DNA of 64,000 bases, taken from assembly GCF_003428645.1 (NCBI RefSeq), contig NZ_QVQH01000021.1:1-64000 (forward strand), given 5' to 3'. Source of the DNA: Geodermatophilus marinus (GTDB lineage Bacteria > Actinomycetota > Actinomycetes > Mycobacteriales > Geodermatophilaceae). Every line of letters begins with the position of its first letter. Within the stretch, counting starts at the first letter, position 1. The position numbers and the translations under genes were made by a program. This document shows positions 51,165-62,338 of the stretch, piece after piece. The notes under the pieces were generated by a model that was given only the letters and a program-made list of their open reading frames with translations, had not been told where the DNA came from and searched no databases.

Positions 51165-51342
51165 TCGGTGCCTGGCCGTTCGACCTGCACCGGCTCCTCC
51201 CCGGCGGTCGGGCCCCGAGCGGCGTGCCGCAGGACCCTTGCGGGGAGCGGCCGACGTGCCCGAGGGTCGTGGCCGGCGTGCCCGGCTGATCGGTCGCGCC
51301 GGACGTCCGAGGGCTGCGTCGTGCGATCAGGTGGTGTGCGGG

Positions 51343-51765
51343 ATGAACGGGAAGAGCTGCGCGTGCGACACGTCCGCCGACGTCCGCGTTCTCCTCGTCG
51401 ACGACCACCCGCTGGCGCGCAGGACGCTGACGGACGTGCTGTCCGAGGAGGACGGCCTCACCGTCGTCGGTGAGTGCGAGGACGGCTCGCAGGTGGTGGA
51501 GGCCGCCGCGCGCCTGCGACCCGACGTCGTGTTCATGGACCTCTCGATGCCGGTGATGGACGGGCTGGCGGCGACGCGGGCGCTGCGCGCGGCCCGGCCC
51601 GAGACCCGGGTCATCGTGCTGACCGCGGAGGGCGGTGAGGCGCGGGCCGAGGCCGTCGTCGCCGGAGCGCACGCGCTGGTCCCGAAGGGCACCCGCCTCG
51701 GTCCGCTGCTGCGCTGCCTGCGCACGGTGGCCGAGGGGGGTTCGGACTGCCCCTACTGCCTGTGA
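51343..51765 (+). CDS. Stand-alone receiver protein with N- and C-terminal cysteines
   Basis: The 140-residue protein is a single receiver domain with pocket residues D20-D21, phosphoacceptor D66 (VVFMDLSMP), T94 (VIVLTAE) and K115 (LVPKGTR). No output domain follows; the protein ends at SDCPYCL. Cysteines at 6 and 8 (SCACDT) and 136 and 139 (CPYC) flank the domain, a pattern I do not know from ordinary receivers. It may bind metal or respond to redox. ATG at 51343 is the start nearest the domain. No kinase is adjacent. Confidence 0.75.
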   Translation: MNGKSCACDTSADVRVLLVDDHPLARRTLTDVLSEEDGLTVVGECEDGSQVVEAAARLRPDVVFMDLSMPVMDGLAATRALRAARPETRVIVLTAEGGEARAEAVVAGAHALVPKGTRLGPLLRCLRTVAEGGSDCPYCL

Positions 51766-51835: not shown

Positions 51836-52600
51836 GTGGTCGGGCAGGACGAGCGGGCGCCGTTCGCGGGGGCGCTGGAACGGGCGCGGTCGGCCGCCTA
51901 CCCCGCCGGGCAGTACGTGGGGCAGGAGAGCTTCGTGCTCGCCGACGAGGTCCGCCGCCTGGCGGGCTCCGCCGGGATCGGCCCCGGCACCGCGGTGCTC
52001 GACCTGTGCTGCGGGGTCGCCGGGCCCGGCCGGCTGATCGCGGCGGAGACCGGCTGCGGCTACCTCGGCGTGGACCGCTCGGCCGCAGCGCTCCGCATCG
52101 CCCGCCGGCTGGCCGGCGACCTGCCCTGCCGCTTCGTGCAGGGGGACGTGCCACCGCTGCCCGACGGCCGGTTCGACGTCGTGCTTTTGCTGGAGACCCT
52201 GCTCGCCTTCCCCGACAAGGCGGCGCTGCTGCACGCGGTGGCCGGCGCGCTGGCGCCCGGTGGCCGCTTCGCCTGCACCGTCGAGGAGGGGCGCCCGCTC
52301 GACGCCGTGGAGCGGCGGCGGATGGCCGACGCCGACACCGTCTGGCCCGTCGAGCTGCCCCGGCTCGCGGCCCTGCTCGACGCGGCCGGGCTGGCGGTGA
52401 CCTGGCAGGAGGAGTGCACGGCCGCCCACCACGGGACGGCGGCGGCGCTGCTGGGCGCCTACCGCGCCGAGGAGGCCGGCATCGCCGCCCGGGTCGGGCC
52501 GCGGGCCGCGGCCGAGCTGGTCGCCGCGCACGAGCTGTGGGTGACCTGGCTCGGGACCGGCCGGGTGCGCAAGTTCGCCCTGGTGGCCGAGAAGCGGTGA
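51836..52600 (+). CDS. SAM-dependent methyltransferase, class I (first of pair)
   Basis: The 254-residue Rossmann methyltransferase has motif I AVLDLCCGVAGPGRLIA, motif II GYLGVDRSAAALRIARR and motif IV FDVVLLLETLLAFPD. LAPGGRFACTVEEG follows. The substrate is unknown. Its stop overlaps the start of a second methyltransferase in a GTGA, so the two are coupled. The pair precedes the GTP-cyclohydrolase-containing cluster and may belong to it. GTG at 51836 is chosen ahead of the first conserved helix; the exact start is uncertain. Confidence 0.8.
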   Translation: MVGQDERAPFAGALERARSAAYPAGQYVGQESFVLADEVRRLAGSAGIGPGTAVLDLCCGVAGPGRLIAAETGCGYLGVDRSAAALRIARRLAGDLPCRFVQGDVPPLPDGRFDVVLLLETLLAFPDKAALLHAVAGALAPGGRFACTVEEGRPLDAVERRRMADADTVWPVELPRLAALLDAAGLAVTWQEECTAAHHGTAAALLGAYRAEEAGIAARVGPRAAAELVAAHELWVTWLGTGRVRKFALVAEKR

Positions 52601-53490
52601 CCTACCCCTACACGCGCTACCTCGCCGCCAAGCGCACCGTGGACGACCGCGCCCTCAACCGCCGGGTGCTCGACGACCTCCGCGAGCTGGTGCCCGCGCA
52701 CCGGCCGCGGGTGCTCGAGGTCGGCGCGGGGCTCGGCACCATGGTCGCCCGCCTGGTGGAGTGGCGGGTCCTCGACGCCGGGGAGTACACCCTCCTGGAC
52801 GTCGACCGGCAGCTGCTGCAGGACTCCCGCGCCTGGCTCACCGCGTGGGCGGGGGGCCGCGGTCTGCCGGTCGACCCGCAGCCGGACGGGCTGCTCCTCG
52901 GCGACCTGCGGGTGCGGCTGGTCGAGGCCGAGCTCGGGGCCCACCTCGACGCCGGTCGCGGCGACCCGGTGGACGTCCTGGTCGCCCACGCGGTGCTGGA
53001 CGTGGTGGACGTCCCCGCCGTCCTGCCCGGGTTGCTGCGGCTGCTGGCCCCGGGCGGCGCCTACTGGTTCACCGTCACCTTCGACGGCGACACCATCTTC
53101 GCGCCGGACCACCCGGCCGACGACGACATGCTGGGGGCCTACCACGCGAGCATGGACGACCGCGTCCGGTACGGCCGGCCCGCCGGGGAGAGCCGGGCCG
53201 GGCGGCACCTGTTCCACCGGCTGCGCGACGCGGGGGCCCCGGTGCTGTCCTCGGGCTCGTCGGACTGGGTGGTGCACGCCGGCCCGGACGGGCGCTACCC
53301 GGGTGACGAGGCGTGGTTCCTGGACTTCGTCCTCGGCACGGTCGGGACCGCCCTGGCCGGCCGCGTGCCGCCGGCCACCCTCGCCGACTGGCTGGCCGCC
53401 CGCCGCCGCCAGCTGGCCGACGGCGACCTGGTCTACATCGCCCACCAGCTCGACGTCCTCGGCCGGGCGCCCGGCGCAGCCCCGGTCTGA
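52597..53490 (+). CDS. SAM-dependent methyltransferase-like protein (second of pair)
   Basis: The 297-residue protein begins TYPYTRYLAAKRTVDDRALN. It has motif I PRVLEVGAGLGTMVARLVEW, an acidic LLDVDRQLLQDSRAWL motif II, VDVLVAHAVLDVVDVPAVLP and LAPGGAYWFTVTFDGDTIF. This subtype with a long insertion (about 85-115) is found in actinobacterial biosynthetic loci; the methyl acceptor is unknown. It starts within the GTGA overlap of the preceding gene. A 280-base interval with small repeats follows before the next gene. Confidence 0.75.
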   Translation: MTYPYTRYLAAKRTVDDRALNRRVLDDLRELVPAHRPRVLEVGAGLGTMVARLVEWRVLDAGEYTLLDVDRQLLQDSRAWLTAWAGGRGLPVDPQPDGLLLGDLRVRLVEAELGAHLDAGRGDPVDVLVAHAVLDVVDVPAVLPGLLRLLAPGGAYWFTVTFDGDTIFAPDHPADDDMLGAYHASMDDRVRYGRPAGESRAGRHLFHRLRDAGAPVLSSGSSDWVVHAGPDGRYPGDEAWFLDFVLGTVGTALAGRVPPATLADWLAARRRQLADGDLVYIAHQLDVLGRAPGAAPV

Positions 53491-53612: not shown

Positions 53613-53745
53613 CGCGATTCACTCAGCCTGGTGTTCACTGCACGTCAGATCTCAAGACACCTGCGATTCACTGCATCCGAGGTCCGAGGCACCCGAGAAG
53701 ACCTGGGTACCTGGGAAGACCGAAGCACCTGAGGTCCGAGGCACC
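53613..53745. repeat. Short imperfect repeats upstream of the phosphatidyltransferase gene
   Basis: GCGATTCACT occurs at 53613-53622 and 53663-53672. GAGGTCCGAGGCACC occurs at 53679-53693 and 53731-53745. The stretch between them repeats AAGACC and ACCTGGG. This region is less GC-rich than its surroundings and lies just before a GTG start, so it probably holds the promoter and possible regulator sites of the downstream operon. Confidence 0.45.
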
Positions 53746-53770
53746 TGACCGGTGCGGCGAGGGGGGCGCG

Positions 53771-56074
53771 GTGGGCACGGTCCGGCGACCGGTGGGAACC
53801 GCCGTGCTCGCCGTGCCCGCCCTGCTCGGTGCCCTGGCCGCGACCGCCGGCCTGCCCCCGGCCGGCTGGGTGGTCGGGCTGGCCGCCGGGTGGGGTGCCA
53901 CCGCGCTGATGGCCGCCGCCCGGGTGCGCGGCGGGGAGGGGCTGCTGCCGGCCGACCTGGTCACCCTGGCCCGCGCGCTGCTGGCCGCCGGCGTCGCCGC
54001 CCTCGTCGTCCCCGCCGCCGACCGGCCGCTGCCGGTGATCGCGGTGGTCGTGCTCGCCTCCGTGGCGCTCGCCCTGGACGCCGTGGACGGCCGGGTGGCG
54101 CGCCGCACCCGCACCGCGACGCCGCTGGGCGGCCGCTTCGACGGCGAGGTCGACGCCTTCCTGATCCTGGTGCTCAGCGTCGCGGTGGCGCGCGAGCACG
54201 GTGGCTGGGTGCTGGCCATCGGCGCCGCCCGCTACGCGTTCCTGGTCGCCGGGTGGGTGCTGCCCTGGCTGGCCGCCCCGCTGCCGTTCCGGTACTGGCG
54301 CAAGGTCGTCGCCGCCGTGCAGGGCGTCGTGCTCACCGTCGCGGTCTCCGGGGTGCTGCCCGGCGCGCTGCCCACGGCCGCGCTGGCCGTCGCCCTGCTG
54401 CTGCTGGCCGAGTCCTTCGGCCGTGACGTCGTCCGGCTCTACCGGGACGGCGCCGGCGAGGGCACCCGCCGGGCGCTGCGGTGGGCGCTCAGCGCGGCCG
54501 CGGTCGCGGTGCTCTGGGCCGTCCTCGTCGCCCCCGACCGGCTGGACCTGCTGCACCCGGCCGCGTTCGCCCGCGTCCCCGTCGAGGGGCTGGCCCTCGT
54601 GGCGGTCGGGCTGCTGCTGCCGCCCCCGTTGCGCCGCGCGGCCGCGCCGGCGGTCGGCGCCGTGTGCGGCCTGCTCGCCGTCGCCAAGCTCCTCGACATG
54701 GGGTTCCGCTCCCAGCTCGGCCGGCGGTTCGACCCGCTGCTCGACTGGGGCAGCTTCGGGCCGGCGATCGGCGTCCTGCGCGACTCGGTCGGGGACGCCG
54801 CCACGAACGGCCTGCTGGCCCTGGTCGGCCTCGCCGTCGTGCTGCTGGTCGCGGTCGTCACCGCGTCGGCGGTGCGGGTCAGCCGGGTGACCGCCCGCCA
54901 CCGGCGGCGCTCGGCCCGTGCGCTCGCCGCCCTGGGCACGGCGTGGGCGGTGAGCGCGGCGCTGTCGCTGCAGCTCGTGCCCGGCGCCCCGGTCGCCTCG
55001 GCGAGCACCGCCGGGCTGGTCGCGGCGCAGGTGCGCGACGTCGCGGCGTCGGTGCGCGAGCAGCGGGAGCTGGAGGCGGCGCTGCGCAGCGACGAGCTCG
55101 TGTCCCGGTCGGGCGGGGAGCTGCTCGCCGGGCTGCGCGGCAGGGACGTCCTCATCGTCTTCGTGGAGAGCTACGGGGAGGTCGCCCTCCGGGGCGGCTC
55201 GTTCTCCGCCGGCGTCCAGGCCGTGCTGCACGAGGGCACCGAGGCGCTGGCCCGGGACGGCTGGACCGCGCGCAGCGCGCTGCTCGACTCACCCACCTTC
55301 GGCGGGGTCAGCTGGCTGGCCCACGCGACCCTGCACTCCGGGCTGTGGATCGACGACCAGCAGAGCTACGACCGGCTCCTGGCCAGCGACCGGTTCACCC
55401 TGGCCGCCGCCTTCGGCCAGGCGGGCTGGCGCACCGTCGCCGCCATCCCCGCGAACGACCGGGACTGGCCGGAGGGGAAGGCCTTCTACGGCTGGGACGA
55501 GATCTACGACCGGCGGACCGTCGGCTACCAGGGCCCGGGGTTCAGCTACGCCCCGATGCCGGACCAGTACACCCTGGCCGCCTTCCAGCGGCTGGAGCTG
55601 GGCCCCGGGCACGGCCCGGTCATGGCCGAGATCGACCTCGTCTCCTCGCACCACCCGTGGACGCCGCTGCCGACCCCCGTGCCCTGGGAGGAGGTCGGCG
55701 ACGGCTCGGTCTTCGACCCCGTGCCGGCGCAGGGCCTGTCGGTCGAGGAGGCCTGGCGCGACCCCGCGGTGGTCCGCTCGCTCTACGGCCAGTCGGTCGA
55801 GTACTCCCTGGAGGTCGTGCTCTCGTGGCTCACCACGCAGGTCGAGGGCGACCCCGTCGTCGTCCTGCTGGGCGACCACCAGCCCGTTCCCGTCGTCAGC
55901 GGCCCCGACGCCGGCACCCACGTCCCGGTCTCGCTCATCACCCGCGACCCCGCGGTGCTCGCCCGCACCGCCGGCTGGGGGTGGGCGGACGGCCTGGTGC
56001 CGCCCGCCGACGCCCCGCGGTGGCCCATGGACTCCTTCCGCGACCGGTTCCTCGACGCGTTCGAGGCGCCGTGA
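53771..56074 (+). CDS. CDP-alcohol phosphatidyltransferase fused to LtaS/sulfatase-like domain
   Basis: The 767-residue membrane protein joins two activities. The N-terminal part has the complete CDP-alcohol phosphatidyltransferase motif: D103-x2-D106-G107-x2-A110-R111-x8-G120-x3-D124-x3-D128. More helices follow (to about 455). The C-terminal part is a sulfatase/phosphoglycerol-transferase fold with VLIVFVESYGE, SPTFGGVSWLAHATLHSG (candidate nucleophile Thr) and LLGDHQPVPVV (metal Asp-His), as in LtaS-type enzymes. Together they could make and then transfer a phospho-alcohol head group. GTG at 53771; 55 bases separate it from the next gene. Confidence 0.8.
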   Translation: MGTVRRPVGTAVLAVPALLGALAATAGLPPAGWVVGLAAGWGATALMAAARVRGGEGLLPADLVTLARALLAAGVAALVVPAADRPLPVIAVVVLASVALALDAVDGRVARRTRTATPLGGRFDGEVDAFLILVLSVAVAREHGGWVLAIGAARYAFLVAGWVLPWLAAPLPFRYWRKVVAAVQGVVLTVAVSGVLPGALPTAALAVALLLLAESFGRDVVRLYRDGAGEGTRRALRWALSAAAVAVLWAVLVAPDRLDLLHPAAFARVPVEGLALVAVGLLLPPPLRRAAAPAVGAVCGLLAVAKLLDMGFRSQLGRRFDPLLDWGSFGPAIGVLRDSVGDAATNGLLALVGLAVVLLVAVVTASAVRVSRVTARHRRRSARALAALGTAWAVSAALSLQLVPGAPVASASTAGLVAAQVRDVAASVREQRELEAALRSDELVSRSGGELLAGLRGRDVLIVFVESYGEVALRGGSFSAGVQAVLHEGTEALARDGWTARSALLDSPTFGGVSWLAHATLHSGLWIDDQQSYDRLLASDRFTLAAAFGQAGWRTVAAIPANDRDWPEGKAFYGWDEIYDRRTVGYQGPGFSYAPMPDQYTLAAFQRLELGPGHGPVMAEIDLVSSHHPWTPLPTPVPWEEVGDGSVFDPVPAQGLSVEEAWRDPAVVRSLYGQSVEYSLEVVLSWLTTQVEGDPVVVLLGDHQPVPVVSGPDAGTHVPVSLITRDPAVLARTAGWGWADGLVPPADAPRWPMDSFRDRFLDAFEAP

Positions 56075-56129
56075 CCGGCCGGCGCGCACCCGTGCGGCTC
56101 CCCTCCCCGGCACGACGGGGGAGGGGCCG

Positions 56130-57137
56130 GTGACCGCGGCGCCGGGGGCGGCCCGCGCGTTCTGGCTGCGGGAGCCGGGGCGCGGGGAGATCCGCGCGGT
56201 GGAGCTGCCGGAGCCGGGCCCCGACGAGGTCCTCGTCCGGGCCCTCCACTCGGGGGTCAGCCGCGGCACCGAGGCGCTCGTCTTCCGCGGCGGCGTGCCG
56301 GCCGGCCAGCGCGCGGCGATGCGGGCCCCGTTCCAGGACGGCGACTTCCCCGCGCCGGTGAAGTACGGCTACCTGAGCGTCGGGGTGGTCGAGCGGGGGC
56401 CGGCGGAGCTGCGCGGGCGCGCGGTCTTCTGCCTGTACCCGCACCAGACGGCGTACGTGGTCCCGGCTGCCGCCGTCACCCCCGTGCCCGACGGCGTCCC
56501 GGCCCGGCGGGCCGTGCTGGCGGGCACGGTGGAGACCGCGGTGAACGCGCTCTGGGACGCCCCGCCGCTGATCGGCGACCGGGTGAGCGTCGTGGGCGCC
56601 GGGATGGTCGGGTGCGCCGTGACCCGGCTGCTCGCCCGGGTGCCCGGCGTGGCGGTGCAGGTCGTGGACGTCGACGGCGGGCGGGCGGACGCCGCCGCCC
56701 GGCTCGGGGCCGCCTTCGCCCGGCCGGAGCACGCGGCGCGCGGCCGGGACCTGGTCGTGCACACCAGCGCGTCGGCGGCCGGGCTGCAGCTCGCCCTGGA
56801 CCTGCTGCGCCCCGAGGGGGTGGTGCTCGAGCTGAGCTGGTACGGCGACCGGGAGGTCACCGTCTCCCTGGGCGGCGCCTTCCACTCCCGGCGGCTCGAC
56901 GTGCGGGCCAGCCAGGTGGGCGCGGTGGCCCCGGCGCGCCGGAGCTCCCGGACGACCGGTGACCGGCTGGCGCTCGCGCTCGACCTGCTGCGCGACCCGG
57001 CCTTCGACGTGCTGCTCACCGGCAGCTCGCCGTTCGACGAGCTGCCCGGGGTGATGCCGCGGCTCGCGGACGGGCGGCTGCCGGCCCTGTGCCACACGAT
57101 CGACTACGCCGAAGGGGTGAGCGGGTGTTCAGCGTGA
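56130..57137 (+). CDS. Zinc-type alcohol dehydrogenase-like oxidoreductase
   Basis: The 335-residue medium-chain dehydrogenase-like protein has an N-terminal GroES-like domain ([20 protein letters not shown]) and a Rossmann domain ([20 protein letters not shown]). The S-x-G-T-E pattern without the usual catalytic zinc cysteines resembles the BchC-like branch. The substrate is unknown. It shares its last 13 bases with the next gene, so it is translationally coupled to the tetrahydropterin-synthase homologue. GTG at 56130. Confidence 0.8.
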
Positions 57138-57523
57138 CGGTCCGCGACCACATGATGGTGGCGCACAGCCTCCGGGGGGAGGTCTTCGGCCCGGCGCAGC
57201 GGCTGCACGGGGCCACGTTCGTCGTGGACGCGACGTTCCGGCGCCGCGAGCTCGACGACGACGGCGTGGTCGTCGACATCGGCGCCGCCACCGAGCTGCT
57301 CAGGGCCGTCCTCGGCGAGCTGACCTACCGCAACCTCGACGACGAGCCGGCGCTCGCGGGCACGAACACCACCACCGAGGTGCTGGCCCGGGTGGTCTCC
57401 GACCGGCTCGTGGCCGGGCTGCGCGCCGGTGCCCTGGGCCCCGGGGCCGACGGCCTGGACGGGCTGGCGGTCACCCTGCACGAGTCCCACGTCGCCTGGG
57501 CCGGCTACGACCGGACGCTGTGA
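57125..57523 (+). CDS. Degenerate 6-pyruvoyl-tetrahydropterin synthase/QueD homologue
   Basis: The 132-residue protein follows the T-fold pattern of PTPS/Que[14 protein letters not shown] holds the first zinc His (H14), [14 protein letters not shown] the second (H28), [18 protein letters not shown] and [20 protein letters not shown] follow, and [13 protein letters not shown] carries E120. Canonical enzymes have H-G-H-N, whereas here A30 replaces the third zinc ligand, and no catalytic cysteine precedes it. So the usual PTPS or QueD reaction is doubtful. It may process a different pyrimidine or pterin intermediate. It overlaps both neighbours. Confidence 0.8.
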
Positions 57524-58572
57524 GCGCGGTCGCCGTCGTCGTCCCGCCCGGGGTGGACGACCCCACCCGGGTCAGCGGGGGGAACCGCTACGACCGCCGG
57601 GCCTGCGACGGCCTGCGCGGGCGCGGGTGGGCGGTCGAGGAGGTGACGGCCCCGGGCCGCTGGCCGCGCCCCGACCCCGGCGCGCTGGCCGGGCTCGGGC
57701 GCGCGCTGGACCGGCTGGCGGACGGCGCGCTCGTGCTCGTCGACGGCCTGGTCGCCTCGGCCGCCGCGGCGGTGCTCGTCCCGCGGTCGGCCCGGCTGCG
57801 CCTGGTCGTCCTGGTGCACCTGCCGCTCGGCGGCGCCGACGTCCCGGCCGGCGAGGAGGAGGCCGTGCTGGCGGCCGCGCGGGCGGTGCTGACCACCAGC
57901 GGCTGGACCCGGGACCGCCTGCTGGCGCGCTACCGGCTCGACCCCGACCGCGTGCACGTGGCCCGCCCGGGCACCGACCCGGCCGGGACGGCACCGGGGA
58001 CGGCGTCCGGCGGCCGGCTGCTGTGCGTGGCCGCGCTCGTCCGGCACAAGGGGCAGGACCTGCTCGTCGAGGCGCTCGCCGCGCTGACCTGGCTGCCGTG
58101 GACCTGCCGGCTGGTCGGCCCGCTGGACCGCGACCCGGCCTTCGTCGCGGCGCTGACCCGGCGGGCCGCCGCCGCGGGGATCGCCGACCGGGTCGCCCTC
58201 ACGGGCGTCGCCGCCGGGGCGGCGCTGCAGCGCGAGTACCGCGCGGCCGACGTCCTCGTGGCCCCCTCCCGGACCGAGACCTACGGCATGGCGGTCACCG
58301 AGGCCCTGGCCGCCGGGCTGCCGGTGGTCGCCACCGCCGTGGGCGGGCTGCCCGAGGCGGTGGGGTGCACGCCGGCCGGCCGGCCCGGGCTGCTCGTGCC
58401 GGGTGAGGACCCGGTCGCCCTCGCCGGGGCGCTCGGGTGCTGGCTCACCGAGCCGGCGCTGCGCACCCGGCTCCGGGGGGCCGCGCGGCGGCGCCGCCGG
58501 ACCCTGCCCCGCTGGCGGGAGACCGCCGAACGCATCGGGTCGGTCCTGGCCGCCGTCGGCGGGCAGCCGTGA
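57520..58572 (+). CDS. Glycosyltransferase family 4-like protein
   Basis: The 350-residue GT-B enzyme has an N-terminal acceptor domain ([20 protein letters not shown]) and a C-terminal donor domain with [45 protein letters not shown] (E-x7-E motif) and [13 protein letters not shown]. It would transfer a sugar from a nucleotide donor. Start and stop both lie in four-base GTGA overlaps with its neighbours, which indicates tight co-expression with the pterin-type and reductase genes. Confidence 0.85.
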
Positions 58573-59612
58573 CGGCGCAGATCGCCCACCCCGGGACGGC
58601 GGCTGGCGAGGTTCCCCGCGACCGCCACCGGCGGGCGTGGGCGGCGGCGGGCCCGGTGGGCGGTGCGCTCGTGCTCGCCGTCCTCGTCTGGCTGCTCGGC
58701 ACCGGGCCGTTCCTGGCCGGCGTCCGCGGGTTGCGCCCCGGCACGCTGCTGGCCGCCGTCGCCGTCGGCGCCGTCACCACCGTGTGCTCGGCCTGGCGGT
58801 GGCGGGTCGTGGCCCGGGCGCTCGGCGCCGGCCTGGCGCTGCCCGCCGCGACCGCGGCGTACTACGGCTCCCAGTTCCTCAACTGCACGCTGCCCGGCGG
58901 GGTGCTCGGCGACCTGCACCGCGGGCTGCGCCACGGCGCGGACTGCGGGGACCCGGTCCGCGGGGTGCGCGCCGTCGCCTGGGAGCGCACCGCGGGTCAA
59001 CTGGTGCTGGCCGTGCTGGCGCTCGGGGTGCTGCTCGCGCTGCCCTCACCGGTGCAGGGCGCGGTCCCGGTGCTCGCGGCCGTGGCGGCGGGGGCGGCGG
59101 TCGCCGTCGCCGCCACCGGCCGCGTCGCGGTCCGGTGGGTGCCGGCCGGCCTGGCGCGGGCCGTGCGCACCGTGGCCGGCGAGGCACGGGCCGGGCTGCT
59201 CGCGCCGGCCGTGCTGACCAGCTCCGCGCTGGTCTGCGCGGGCCACCTCGGGCTGTTCCTGCTCGCCGCCGGGGCCGCCGGCGTGCCGGGCTCACCGGCG
59301 CGGCTGCTGCCCCTGGCCGTGGTCGTGCTGATCGCCGCGGCGATCCCGTTCAACGTGGGCGGCTGGGGTCCGCGGGAGGGGGTGGCCGCCTGGGTGTTCG
59401 CGGCCGCCGGCTACACGGCCGCGGAGGGGGCGGCGGTCGCGACCGCGTTCGGGGTGCTCACGCTCGTGTCGGTGCTGCCCGGCGCCGTCGTGCTGCTCGT
59501 CCACCGGCGGCGACGGCGCTCGGCCGAGCGCTCGGCGCGGACCGGGCCGTCCGTGCAGGGGCACCATGTCGTGCACGGCGGAGTACGAGAGGACGGTGCA
59601 GCGCGTGGTTGA
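58569..59612 (+). CDS. Lysylphosphatidylglycerol-synthase-type integral membrane protein
   Basis: The 347-residue protein has about eight to nine transmembrane helices and the UPF0104/LPG_synthase_TM pattern: GAVTTVCSAWRWRVVARALG, FLNCTLPGGVLGDLHRGLRH, VAWERTAGQLVL and a late AAAIPFNVGGWGPREGVAAW. The soluble acyl- or aminoacyl-transferase domain of MprF is absent. Stand-alone members may act as flippases or membrane partners of glycolipid synthesis; that is inferred. It starts in a GTGA overlap, and its end overlaps the reductase gene start. Confidence 0.85.
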   Translation: MTAQIAHPGTAAGEVPRDRHRRAWAAAGPVGGALVLAVLVWLLGTGPFLAGVRGLRPGTLLAAVAVGAVTTVCSAWRWRVVARALGAGLALPAATAAYYGSQFLNCTLPGGVLGDLHRGLRHGADCGDPVRGVRAVAWERTAGQLVLAVLALGVLLALPSPVQGAVPVLAAVAAGAAVAVAATGRVAVRWVPAGLARAVRTVAGEARAGLLAPAVLTSSALVCAGHLGLFLLAAGAAGVPGSPARLLPLAVVVLIAAAIPFNVGGWGPREGVAAWVFAAAGYTAAEGAAVATAFGVLTLVSVLPGAVVLLVHRRRRRSAERSARTGPSVQGHHVVHGGVREDGAARG

Positions 59613-60324
59613 CCGGCCCTACACCCTGCTCAGCTGCGGGATGTCGATCGACGGCTACCTCGACAGCCCCGGGATCCGGCGGCTGCAGCTGTCGAACGCG
59701 GCCGACTTCGACCGGGTCGACGCCGTGCGCGCCGGGTGCGACGCGATCCTGGTGGGGGCGGCCACCGTCCGCAACGACAACCCGCGCCTGCTGGTCCGCT
59801 CGCCGGCCCGCCGCCGGGAGCGGCTCGTGCACGGGCTGCCGCCGTCCCCGGTGAAGGTGACCCTGACGCGGCGCGGTGACCTCGCCCCCGCGGCGGACTT
59901 CTTCACCTGCGGGGACGCCGAGAAGCTCGTCTACTGCCCGACCGCGGCCGCCGGGACGACGCGGCGGCGACTGGGCCCCGTCGCGACCGTCGTCGACACC
60001 GGGCCGGGGGAGGACGTCGACGTGGCGCGGGTCGTCGAGGACCTCTCCGCGCGCGGGGTGGACCGGCTGATGGTCGAGGGCGGGGGGCTCGTGCTCACCC
60101 AGTTCCTCACCGCGGACCTCGCCGACGAGCTGCACCTCGTGGTGGCGCCGCTGTTCGTCGGGGACTCGCGCGCGGCGCGGGTGGTCGGCGACGGGCGCTT
60201 CCCCTGGAACCCCGACCGGCGCGCCGAGCTGGTCGGCGTCCGGCAGATCGGGGACGTGGTGCTGCTGCGGTACGCGCTCTCGCCGCGGTTCGGCGCCGAG
60301 CGGTCGCCGGGTGAGGCCCGGTGA
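59566..60324 (+). CDS. RibD C-terminal/dihydrofolate-reductase-type pyrimidine reductase
   Basis: The 252-residue protein is a stand-alone RibD_C reductase: RPYTLLSCGMSIDGYLD, RVDAVRAGCDAILVGAATVRNDNP with the N-D-x-P motif, RLMVEGGGLVLTQFL and LHLVVAPLFVGD. It lacks the deaminase domain of RibD/RibG. It therefore resembles the fungal/archaeal Rib7-type enzymes that reduce 2,5-diamino-6-ribosylamino-pyrimidinone phosphate to the ribityl form with NADPH. ATG at 59566 has an AGGGG site but overlaps the upstream gene by 47 bases; GTG at 59605 is an alternative. The stop overlaps the ribA start. Confidence 0.85.
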   Translation: MSCTAEYERTVQRVVDRPYTLLSCGMSIDGYLDSPGIRRLQLSNAADFDRVDAVRAGCDAILVGAATVRNDNPRLLVRSPARRRERLVHGLPPSPVKVTLTRRGDLAPAADFFTCGDAEKLVYCPTAAAGTTRRRLGPVATVVDTGPGEDVDVARVVEDLSARGVDRLMVEGGGLVLTQFLTADLADELHLVVAPLFVGDSRAARVVGDGRFPWNPDRRAELVGVRQIGDVVLLRYALSPRFGAERSPGEAR

Positions 60325-61004
60325 GGGCCCCGGCTCCCGAGGCCGCGGTCCGCGGGCGGGTCGACGTCCCGCTGCGTTTCCCGGACGGCTACGAGACCGT
60401 GGCCGAGGTCGTCAGCTTCCACGGCCTCGTCGACGGCCGCGAGCACCTCGCGCTCGGGCTCGGCGGCCGGGGCCCGGGCGCCGTCCCCCTCGTCCGGCCG
60501 CACAGCGAGTGCCTCACCGGGGACGTGCTCGGCAGCCTCCGCTGCGACTGCGGGCCCCAGTTGCGGGAGGCGGCGGAGCGGATCACCGCCGCCGGCGGCT
60601 ACCTGCTCTACCTGCGGCAGGAGGGCCGGGGCATCGGGCTGTACGACAAGCTCGACGCCTACGCCCTGCAGGACACCGGCCTGGACACCTACGAGGCCAA
60701 CGTGGCCCTCGGCCACGCGCCGGACGAGCGCGACTACACGGTCGCGGCGCAGATGCTGCTCGCCCTCGGCGTGTCGCGGCTGGCGCTGCTGAGCAACAAC
60801 CCGGACAAGGCCGACCAGCTCGACCGGCTCGGCCTGACCGTGGTCGAGCAGGTCCCCACCCGCGTGCACCTGTCCTCGGCGAACTCGGCCTACCTCTCGG
60901 CCAAGGCCCGCAACGGCCACCACGTCCCGGACCCGCTGCCCAGGCCGGCGCGGCCGCCACGTGCCCCGGGTGACCACCACGCGGGCCGGTCCGCCGGCGG
61001 GTGA
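60321..61004 (+). CDS. ribA: GTP cyclohydrolase II
   Basis: The 227-residue enzyme has zinc cysteines C64, C75 and C77 (SECLTGDVLGSLRCDCG), LRQEGRGIGLYDKLDAYALQ, NVALGHAPDERDY and LLSNNPDKADQL. It opens the GTP imidazole ring to 2,5-diamino-6-ribosylamino-pyrimidinone phosphate plus formate and pyrophosphate. The product-determining Tyr is present (Y114 in LDAYALQ). A Met at this position in S. coelicolor SCO6655 stops the reaction at the formylated product. There is no RibB domain and no other riboflavin gene nearby, so this is probably a dedicated paralogue. GTGA overlap with the reductase gene. Confidence 0.92.
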   Translation: MRAPAPEAAVRGRVDVPLRFPDGYETVAEVVSFHGLVDGREHLALGLGGRGPGAVPLVRPHSECLTGDVLGSLRCDCGPQLREAAERITAAGGYLLYLRQEGRGIGLYDKLDAYALQDTGLDTYEANVALGHAPDERDYTVAAQMLLALGVSRLALLSNNPDKADQLDRLGLTVVEQVPTRVHLSSANSAYLSAKARNGHHVPDPLPRPARPPRAPGDHHAGRSAGG

Positions 61005-61141: not shown

Positions 61142-62338
61142 ATGCGTGCCGACCTGTTCCTGGCCCACACCGCCCTGTCCCGCCGCGCCGCACTCGGGCT
61201 CGCCGGCGCCGCCTCTCTCGGCGTCGCCGGTCTGGGCCGCGTGTCGCCGGCCGCCGCGACCGGACCCGGCGAGGCCGCGGGCGGCGCGGGCTACGACGAC
61301 GTGATGTTCGACGTGGCTCTCGCCGAGGGCGGCGGCTGGGCGCCGTCCCGCTACGGCCCGACCGACCAGCGCGGCACGTTCAACGAGGTGACGGCCGCCA
61401 CGACCGCCGCGGCCCTGCGGCTGCTGGCCGACGGCCGTCCGGTGAGGACGTACAACCTGGGCGAGCTGATGACCAACGGGTTCCCCGCCTATGCGACCAC
61501 GCCGCCGCGGGTGTACGAGCAGCGCCTGACCGTCCTCGGGTACGAGCCTCCCGCCGGCTTCACCGAGGGCGGCGGGATCCTGCAGGGCACGGAGCCGCTG
61601 GGGGAGAACCGGGTCAGCATCCACGAGGAGCGCTTCCCCGAGGGCTACACCTACCAGATCGTCACCCAGCTCGACGGGCTGAACCACATCGGCGTCGGGC
61701 CGACCTTCTACAACGGCTTCCAGGGCCCGGACATCGCGACTCCCAGCGGGACGAGCAGGCTCGGCAACGAGCACATGGGGCCGATCGCCACCCGCGGCGT
61801 CCTGCTCGACGTGCTGGGCCTCAAGCTCGACGAAGGGGCGAGCGAGGCGCTGTCGCGCAGCGCGGACGGCGACCCGGTGCTGCGCGACGACTACCGGATC
61901 ACGATCGCCGACCTGGAGGCCGCGGCGGCGCGGGGCGGCATCCGGGACATCCGCCCCGGCGACGTCGTGCTGCTGCGGACCGGCTGGAACAAGATCGCCC
62001 GGAGCGAGCCGGAGCGCTACCTGGCCCGGGAGCCGGGCATCTACCTCGCCGAGGCGCGCTACCTGGCCGACCGGCGCCCCGCCATCATCGGCTCGGACTC
62101 CTGGGCGCTCGAGGTGCTGGGCAACCCGGTGGTGCAGGCCGTGTTCCCCGTGCACCAGGAGCTGCTCGTCAAGAACGGCATCCGGATCGGCGAGGGCATC
62201 ATCACCGACGAGCTCGCGGCGGACGGCGTCCACGAGTTCGTCTACCTGACGACGCCGCAGTACGCGGCGGGCGCGACCGCGGGCAACGCGCCGCCGGCCG
62301 CGCTCGGGCAGCCGGGGGCCGGCCGCGGCCGGGGATGA
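61142..62338 (+). CDS. Cyclase-family protein with Tat signal, kynurenine-formamidase-like
   Basis: The 398-residue protein begins with a twin-arginine signal (LSRRAALGLAGAASLG). The mature part matches the cyclase/kynurenine formamidase-like fold: YGPTDQRGTFNEVT, LDGLNHIGVGPTFYNG, GVLLDVLGL, LEAAAARGGIRDIRPGDVVLLRTGW and SDSWALEVLG. Metal ligands include His in LNHIG; the canonical H-x-G-T-H-x-D motif is modified. It is probably an exported hydrolase of a formamide or lactone-type substrate, unproven. ATG at 61142 follows CGAGGAGTGCC. Confidence 0.8.
   Translation: MRADLFLAHTALSRRAALGLAGAASLGVAGLGRVSPAAATGPGEAAGGAGYDDVMFDVALAEGGGWAPSRYGPTDQRGTFNEVTAATTAAALRLLADGRPVRTYNLGELMTNGFPAYATTPPRVYEQRLTVLGYEPPAGFTEGGGILQGTEPLGENRVSIHEERFPEGYTYQIVTQLDGLNHIGVGPTFYNGFQGPDIATPSGTSRLGNEHMGPIATRGVLLDVLGLKLDEGASEALSRSADGDPVLRDDYRITIADLEAAAARGGIRDIRPGDVVLLRTGWNKIARSEPERYLAREPGIYLAEARYLADRRPAIIGSDSWALEVLGNPVVQAVFPVHQELLVKNGIRIGEGIITDELAADGVHEFVYLTTPQYAAGATAGNAPPAALGQPGAGRGRG

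Follow-up and report, generated by a model that had tools for sequence, protein, structure and literature searches.

A 64,000-nucleotide stretch of Geodermatophilus marinus (contig NZ_QVQH01000021.1; hereafter the window) carries a nine-gene cluster in which a guanosine triphosphate (GTP) cyclohydrolase II (GCH II, RibA), a stand-alone RibD_C-type reductase and a protein of the 6-pyruvoyl-tetrahydropterin synthase (PTPS) fold are encoded together with a dehydrogenase (ADH), a GT4-family glycosyltransferase, two methyltransferases and two membrane proteins. We consider it probable, with moderate confidence, that this actinobacteria-wide cluster serves a pathway separate from riboflavin synthesis, in which its own GCH II and RibD_C reductase would divert GTP into a product of pyrimidine or pterin type that carries sugar and methyl groups and is likely placed on the membrane or moved across it. 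The pathway is real and widely conserved, and GTP is most likely its starting point. A first-pass annotation of the window had proposed a dedicated, glycosylated pyrimidine- or pterin-derived product. The dedicated pathway draws support from the genome's three GCH II genes, a separate riboflavin operon and the conservation of the cluster; the product itself is one that we infer. The features of the cluster are as follows.

51836..52600, + strand: MT1, class I S-adenosylmethionine (SAM) methyltransferase (Pfam Methyltransf_25, 5e-13), in the same position in L112 and L132
52597..53490, + strand: MT2, class I SAM methyltransferase (Methyltransf_12, 1.1e-6, just under the Pfam cut-off)
53792..56074 (start at 53771 also possible), + strand: CDP-alcohol phosphotransferase / LtaS-type fusion (CDP-OH_P_transf, 2.6e-10)
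53942..54442, + strand: CDP-alcohol phosphotransferase domain of the fusion, with the full D-x2-DG-x2-AR-x8-G-x3-D-x3-D motif
55082..56071, + strand: extracytoplasmic alkaline-phosphatase-fold domain of the fusion, LtaS/EptA/MCR-1 type
56130..57137, + strand: MDR-family dehydrogenase (ADH), BchC-like (NCBIfam bchC, 2e-10, below its cut-off; ADH_zinc_N, 0.00068, below the Pfam cut-off)
57125..57523, + strand: PTPS-fold protein, SCO6650 orthologue (T-fold, PF01242)
57520..58572, + strand: GT4-family glycosyltransferase (Glyco_trans_1_4, 3.1e-28)
58569..59612, + strand: UPF0104 / LPG_synthase_TM flippase-like membrane protein (match 4.6e-27)
59566..60324, + strand: stand-alone RibD_C-type reductase (PF01872, 1.1e-38; best NCBIfam match TIGR01508, 121 bits, below the cut-off of 186)
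60321..61004, + strand: GTP cyclohydrolase II (RibA), Tyr type (PF00925, 2e-54, above the cut-off)
53679..53746, no strand: four imperfect 16-nucleotide direct repeats, spacing 16-18, within the fusion gene's leader

Based on open reading frames, Pfam and NCBIfam, the seven genes named in the first-pass annotation are present in the same order on the + strand (CDP-OH_P_transf, dehydrogenase, PTPS, GT4, LPG_synthase_TM, RibD_C, GTP_cyclohydro2). They lie head to tail as it had described, with reading-frame overlaps at all five of the junctions that it gave (57125-57137, 57520-57523, 58569-58572, 59566-59612 and 60321-60324), and 57125 is the conserved start of the PTPS-fold gene. Two methyltransferase genes directly 5' of the seven (51836-53490), which overlap each other by 4 nucleotides, had been overlooked. 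MT1 and MT2 are counted as operon members because the loci of a Modestobacter (L112) and of Geodermatophilus sabuli (L132) keep all nine genes in the order MT1-MT2-fusion-ADH-PTPS-GT4-UPF0104-RibD_C-RibA, with flanking genes that differ from those of the window. The dehydrogenase and MT2 are named from weaker matches, both under the Pfam cut-offs; at 25-29% sequence identity, MT2 is likely the counterpart of the methyltransferase encoded 3' of GT4 in most other clusters.

The association of these families is not a peculiarity of the window. A PTPS-fold orthologue occurs in 38 of the 246 genomes of the class, the window's included, mostly at 63-80% identity, and 38 loci were drawn from the 37 other genomes that carry it; L111, with CDP-OH and no PTPS, and a weak second match in G357 (34% identity) stand outside these 38. 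A scan of the collection, which holds one genome per GTDB species, returned at least 589 stretches encoding a PTPS-fold relative. The best 80 of them by similarity to the query form the named loci, an uneven sample in which one species may account for more than one stretch. With a gene taken as present when a tblastn match lies inside the stretch (mostly 20 kb), the drawn loci contain ADH in 37, GT4 in 38, UPF0104 in 34, CDP-OH in 32 and RibA in 32 cases, and the named loci ADH in 80, GT4 in 80, UPF0104 in 77, CDP-OH in 73 and RibA in 71. The sole drawn locus without ADH, L110, has a stretch that begins inside the PTPS gene. ADH lies within 600 nucleotides of PTPS in 37/37 drawn and 78/80 named loci, and GT4 does so in 36/38 and 79/80. 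A methyltransferase gene of the MT2/MT3 type was found in 32/38 drawn and 77/80 named loci, and MT1 in 8/38 and 2/80. The hosts include Streptomycetaceae, Micromonosporaceae, Pseudonocardiaceae, Geodermatophilaceae, Nocardioidaceae and others; among the matches listed, the nearest named relative of the window's PTPS-fold gene is that of Modestobacter sp. VKM Ac-2985 (90% identity). This co-occurrence is far above chance, and the survey across Actinobacteria that the first-pass annotation had called for refutes the notion that the genes are rarely adjacent, with the core at the 38 drawn and 80 named loci.

Outside the class the picture is more varied. Of 396 genomes searched across the phylum, 127 matched the PTPS profile; 118 of the 127 lie outside the class, where the majority of matches are weaker. 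From the 118 genomes 19 loci were picked by hand, in addition to L269, which was chosen for its CDP-OH match. Eight of the 19 (L251-L256, L266 and L267) carry ADH, GT4 and RibD_C beside PTPS, and a further locus on a 3.8-kb contig (L265) holds PTPS, GT4, RibD_C and RibA that resemble those of the window. In the remaining ten, PTPS is QueD-like, with G-x-C and D-H, and both ADH and GT4 are missing; RibA lies about 5 kb away in L259 and L270, and L259 also has a RibD_C match.

No CDP-OH, LtaS or UPF0104 match was found in the eight cluster-like loci outside the class, which lends some weight to the view that the window joins two unrelated neighbours: a unit for a GTP-derived glycoside (ADH-PTPS-GT4-MT-RibD_C-RibA), and an envelope unit (the CDP-alcohol/LtaS fusion and UPF0104) making an ordinary head-group of the phosphoglycerol or inositol type. 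LtaS-type genes also occur away from the cluster in several genomes. However, UPF0104 and CDP-OH accompany PTPS at most drawn and named loci at the frequencies given above, and in the window the UPF0104 gene overlaps both the GT4 and the RibD_C genes. We regard two independent units as unlikely, and favour a single cluster whose product is likely linked to the membrane.

The suggestion of such a link comes from the CDP-alcohol phosphotransferase and its fusion partner of LtaS/MCR-1 fold. Both halves are found in one called protein at 14 loci including the window. The CDP-alcohol motif is invariant in a 13-row alignment and complete in 96 of 98 called proteins, and the predicted folds are those of PgsA and of LtaS/EptA/MCR-1. 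The C-terminal half had been called LtaS-like, a name that fits its predicted fold. Sequence identity to LtaS, LtaP, EptA and MCR-1 is 8-15%, and no Pfam family, Sulfatase-type included, scores above cut-off on it. Foldseek returned no match to the fusion model at E ≤0.001 (the best, 1.2e-3, was LtaS), so the fold likeness rests on VIA alignments. A Glu, a Thr, an Asp and a His of this domain likely correspond to the metal and nucleophile set of the LtaS, LtaP, EptA and MCR-1 enzymes, from which the window's domain differs in being fused to a CDP-alcohol phosphotransferase. Separately, in a Streptomyces-type genome, two LtaS-type genes adjoin in opposite orientation away from the cluster (G161:C8:169440-172957).

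The genome context sets the cluster apart from riboflavin synthesis. Besides the three GCH II genes, which dispose of the concern that the cluster's ribA might be the only one in the genome, we found twelve RibD_C matches, one PTPS and one FolE. On the strength of a full ribD-ribE-ribBA-ribH operon on another contig (C18), a role confined to riboflavin synthesis was rejected. Of the 38 PTPS-bearing genomes, 35 carry at least two GCH II genes, and one each was found in G322, G459 and G491. The first-pass annotation had noted that ribE/ribH and ribB are missing from the cluster, and indeed Pfam and NCBIfam detected no RibB, RibE, RibH or RibD deaminase domain among the nine genes, which thus differ from the riboflavin pathway while sharing its GCH II and RibD reductase families. 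That family membership would also fit RibA and RibD_C acting as an auxiliary diaminopyrimidine supply for riboflavin or F420, merely sharing an operon with sugar and lipid genes, as would the genomes G491 and G322 (the latter 94% complete), where the cluster enzyme is the sole GCH II found. Against such a supply stand the riboflavin operon on the other contig together with a second RibBA (G000:C6:113805-115001; L272, 6806-8002, + strand), the lack of ribB, ribE and ribH in the cluster, and the sharing of the stretch with PTPS by ADH in 117/118 and GT4 in 118/118 loci; in the eight cluster-like loci outside the class, RibD_C is present in 8/8 and RibA in 3/8. We consider auxiliary supply improbable. 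In another setting, a third GCH II in Streptomyces has as its neighbour, on the opposite strand, a gene with a RibD_C-type match (G128:C1:5057618-5059416); the two recur as a pair in several Streptomyces genomes.

The residues of RibA are consistent with a first step of the GCH II kind in a dedicated pathway. Tyr114 of the window protein (60660-60662) aligns with Tyr105 of the E. coli enzyme (2BZ0 alignment, position counted by hand), and the Cys motif is intact, as it is in 99 of 100 called cluster RibAs. We take Tyr105 to be catalytic and the Cys motif to bind zinc, and on this basis the sequence has the family, zinc ligands and catalytic Tyr of a GCH II. In L108, L255, L256 and L266 a single protein joins RibA with RibD_C.

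Across the clusters, the residue at the Tyr site and the neighbouring genes vary together. Clusters with a Tyr-type RibA have RibD_C in 42/42 cases and a creatininase-family gene in 0/42; those whose RibA has Met, His, Leu or Gln instead have a creatininase-family gene in 58/58, in 56 cases with the opposite orientation to RibA, and RibD_C as well in 9/58. The window is not counted here, and the duplicates L169, L171 and L191 (identical RibA) were dropped although they remain within the 38 and 80 counts; 15 further PTPS loci have no RibA in the stretch, 5 with RibD_C, 1 with creatininase and 9 with neither. GCH II copies outside the cluster have Tyr in all 31 examined. Two of the creatininase-family proteins match PF02633 at 1e-62 and 2e-64, and an HAGE-x-ET motif is present in 49/49 of those called; the window's cluster has no creatininase match. 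This strict split between Tyr with RibD_C and non-Tyr with creatininase is new here; the first-pass annotation had overlooked the creatininase variant. In Sinorhizobium meliloti and Brucella, the creatininase-family protein BrbF has been shown to be a formamidopyrimidine (FAPy) formamidase, for which the study describing it found no FAPy-forming partner; the archaeal ArfB catalyses the same reaction with no sequence similarity to BrbF (PMC9478397). The Streptomyces and Pseudonocardiaceae clusters resemble that system in that their GCH II, predicted to stop at FAPy, has a creatininase-family gene as its neighbour, whereas BrbF serves riboflavin and has no counterpart in the window. Because a member of the BrbF family accompanies every non-Tyr RibA, clusters of both types likely make the same diaminopyrimidine, by analogy.

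The PTPS-fold protein appears to have moved away from its namesake. The description of it as a PTPS-like T-fold holds for fold and family (PF01242): its predicted model has a mean predicted local distance difference test (pLDDT) score of 95 and lies 0.7 Å from 3D7J, at 70% identity. The loss of the zinc site and catalytic residues had escaped notice. In 111 of 113 called proteins, the H-G-H zinc pair of PTPS and QueD reads H-G-A, with Ala in place of the third zinc His; the exceptions are a distant homologue (L109), which keeps H-S-H, and the truncated L110 protein. In alignments, FGPAQ and YRNLD stand where QueD-type relatives have G-x-C and D-H, residues that we assume to be the catalytic Cys and Asp-His pair, while the substrate-binding Glu is invariant in 23 aligned rows. 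Halfway homologues, with H-G-H kept and the Cys and Asp-His lost, occur in L251-L254 beside RibD_C, ADH and GT4.

Given this fold and the FolE gene in the genome, the PTPS-fold protein might instead act on a FolE-derived pterin, leading to a pterin cofactor or glycoside, with RibA and RibD_C feeding a second branch. However, FolE lies on another contig (C34), the orthologues have lost one zinc His, the catalytic Cys and the Asp-His pair, and SCO6650 reportedly has neither zinc nor PTPS activity according to the paper describing 3D7J. In addition, RibA is the GTP enzyme of the locus in 32/38 and 71/80 cases, loci in which FolE was not searched for. A FolE-fed branch therefore seems to us a doubtful explanation. 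A queuosine product is unlikely too: the first-pass annotation had reported queuosine genes as absent, and the single QueC match of the genome falls under the family cut-off (QueE and QueF were not searched for).

The cluster is less novel than had been supposed. It had been called undescribed, but its Streptomyces version, SCO6650-SCO6655, has a PTPS-fold member of solved structure and a cyclohydrolase that is said to have been characterised. 3D7J is the structure of SCO6650, the S. coelicolor cluster's PTPS-fold member and orthologous to the window's protein, and SCO6655, judging by gene number and residue, is that cluster's cyclohydrolase. Spoonamore and co-workers (2006) reportedly found that SCO6655, with Met120 at the Tyr site, stops at FAPy. 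The Streptomyces locus L089 shares with the window the set ADH-PTPS-GT4-MT-UPF0104-RibA, with Met as residue 120 of its RibA; going by the gene numbers, SCO6651-SCO6655 probably follow the gene order of this locus. The window shares the gene set of this type (ADH-PTPS-GT4 with RibA, UPF0104 and CDP-OH) and not the Met-type RibA with creatininase; compared with the Streptomyces cluster, its RibA is of the Tyr type, RibD_C takes the place of creatininase, and one more methyltransferase and the CDP-OH/LtaS fusion are present.

The openly licensed papers listed by our searches, which leave most subscription papers aside, state no purpose for SCO6655 or SCO6650 and assign no product to the cluster, and searches for the combination of families, SCO6647-SCO6649, SCO6656 and PTPS subfamilies returned nothing on the cluster. 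SCO6652, assigned to the cluster by gene number, is upregulated in the second mycelium (MII) of S. coelicolor relative to MI, with log2 values of 0.8 at 24 h, 4.3 at 48 h and 4.1 at 72 h (PMC3610822), and the expression of SCO6655 is anticorrelated with predicted flux (PMC2853524).

Several observations weigh against the reading that we favour. In G491, where it is the fused enzyme of L108, and in the 94% complete G322, the cluster RibA is the sole GCH II found, an argument in these lineages against a role confined to a dedicated pathway. In the tree, all non-Tyr RibAs fall into a single clade (100/93), so the Tyr/creatininase split represents one historical event and not 58. The tree, whose bootstrap was not fully settled, draws two RibA lineages apart, but an approximately unbiased (AU) test leaves a common clade of all cluster RibAs unrejected (p 0.42), and their separate recruitment is not claimed. 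RibD_C is absent from 49 of the 58 non-Tyr clusters, and a search with the L094-type reductase as query, the window's own RibD_C not being used, found no close copy elsewhere in 18 of 20 such genomes (best identity ≤36%); the reductase step may therefore not be general. For the fusion model the mean pLDDT is 65, and the LtaS threonine pattern occurs in 19 of 33 called LtaS-type proteins, compared with 32 or 33 for the other motifs. Finally, LtaS was found in just 14/38 drawn and 18/80 named loci, and no membrane gene in the eight loci outside the class, so that the lipid step may have been added on, or may have nothing to do with the pathway.

From the observed gene content, conservation, residues, predicted folds and separate riboflavin operon, we infer the following reactions, step order, product and lipid step for the dedicated GTP-derived pathway. 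RibA would convert GTP to 2,5-diamino-6-ribosylamino-pyrimidinone phosphate, and RibD_C would turn its ribosyl group into a ribityl chain by reduction. A split first step is likely in Streptomyces and Pseudonocardiaceae, where the Tyr-less RibA would stop at FAPy and the creatininase-family enzyme would take off the formyl group in the manner of BrbF. Having retained the residue for gripping a guanine-like edge and lost the zinc site, Cys and Asp-His, the PTPS-fold protein may hold or rearrange the substrate in a non-PTPS reaction. The dehydrogenase could then oxidise a side-chain hydroxyl, and GT4 and the methyltransferases could decorate the product. The CDP-alcohol transferase domain might turn the product, or its acceptor, into a phospholipid, UPF0104 might help this phospholipid across the membrane, and the LtaS-type domain might move the phospho-head-group outside. 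In its most specific form, a GTP-derived ribitylaminopyrimidine (or pterin) glycoside would become a phospholipid head-group through the CDP-alcohol transferase, be carried by UPF0104 and be handed to a surface acceptor by the LtaS-type domain; we put this forward very tentatively, as a long shot.

Some further features lie in or beside the operon. A PF04199 cyclase-family gene (61142-62338, +) directly 3' of RibA was excluded, since the operons of L112 and L132 have no such neighbour, and so was a response-regulator gene just 5' (51331-51765, +; receiver domain, no output domain matched), which is not beside the operon in these two loci either. ARAGORN called a tRNA-Ala (cgc) at 59166-59241 (+) within the UPF0104 frame, most likely a spurious hit to GC-rich coding sequence, and a promoter and terminator scan found 0 of either.

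In summary, SCO6655 and SCO6650 are placed in one cluster shared by several families of Actinobacteria, in which a residue switch is paired with a putative deformylase of the creatininase family and, in other lineages, Tyr with RibD_C, and the purpose of these proteins thereby becomes directly testable. If the lipid step is true, Actinomycetota would possess an unrecognised nucleotide-derived envelope compound. The head-group reading, if true, would define a new class of envelope molecules, the first nucleotide-ring pathway of a teichoic-acid-like or glycolipid kind, over much of Actinomycetota.

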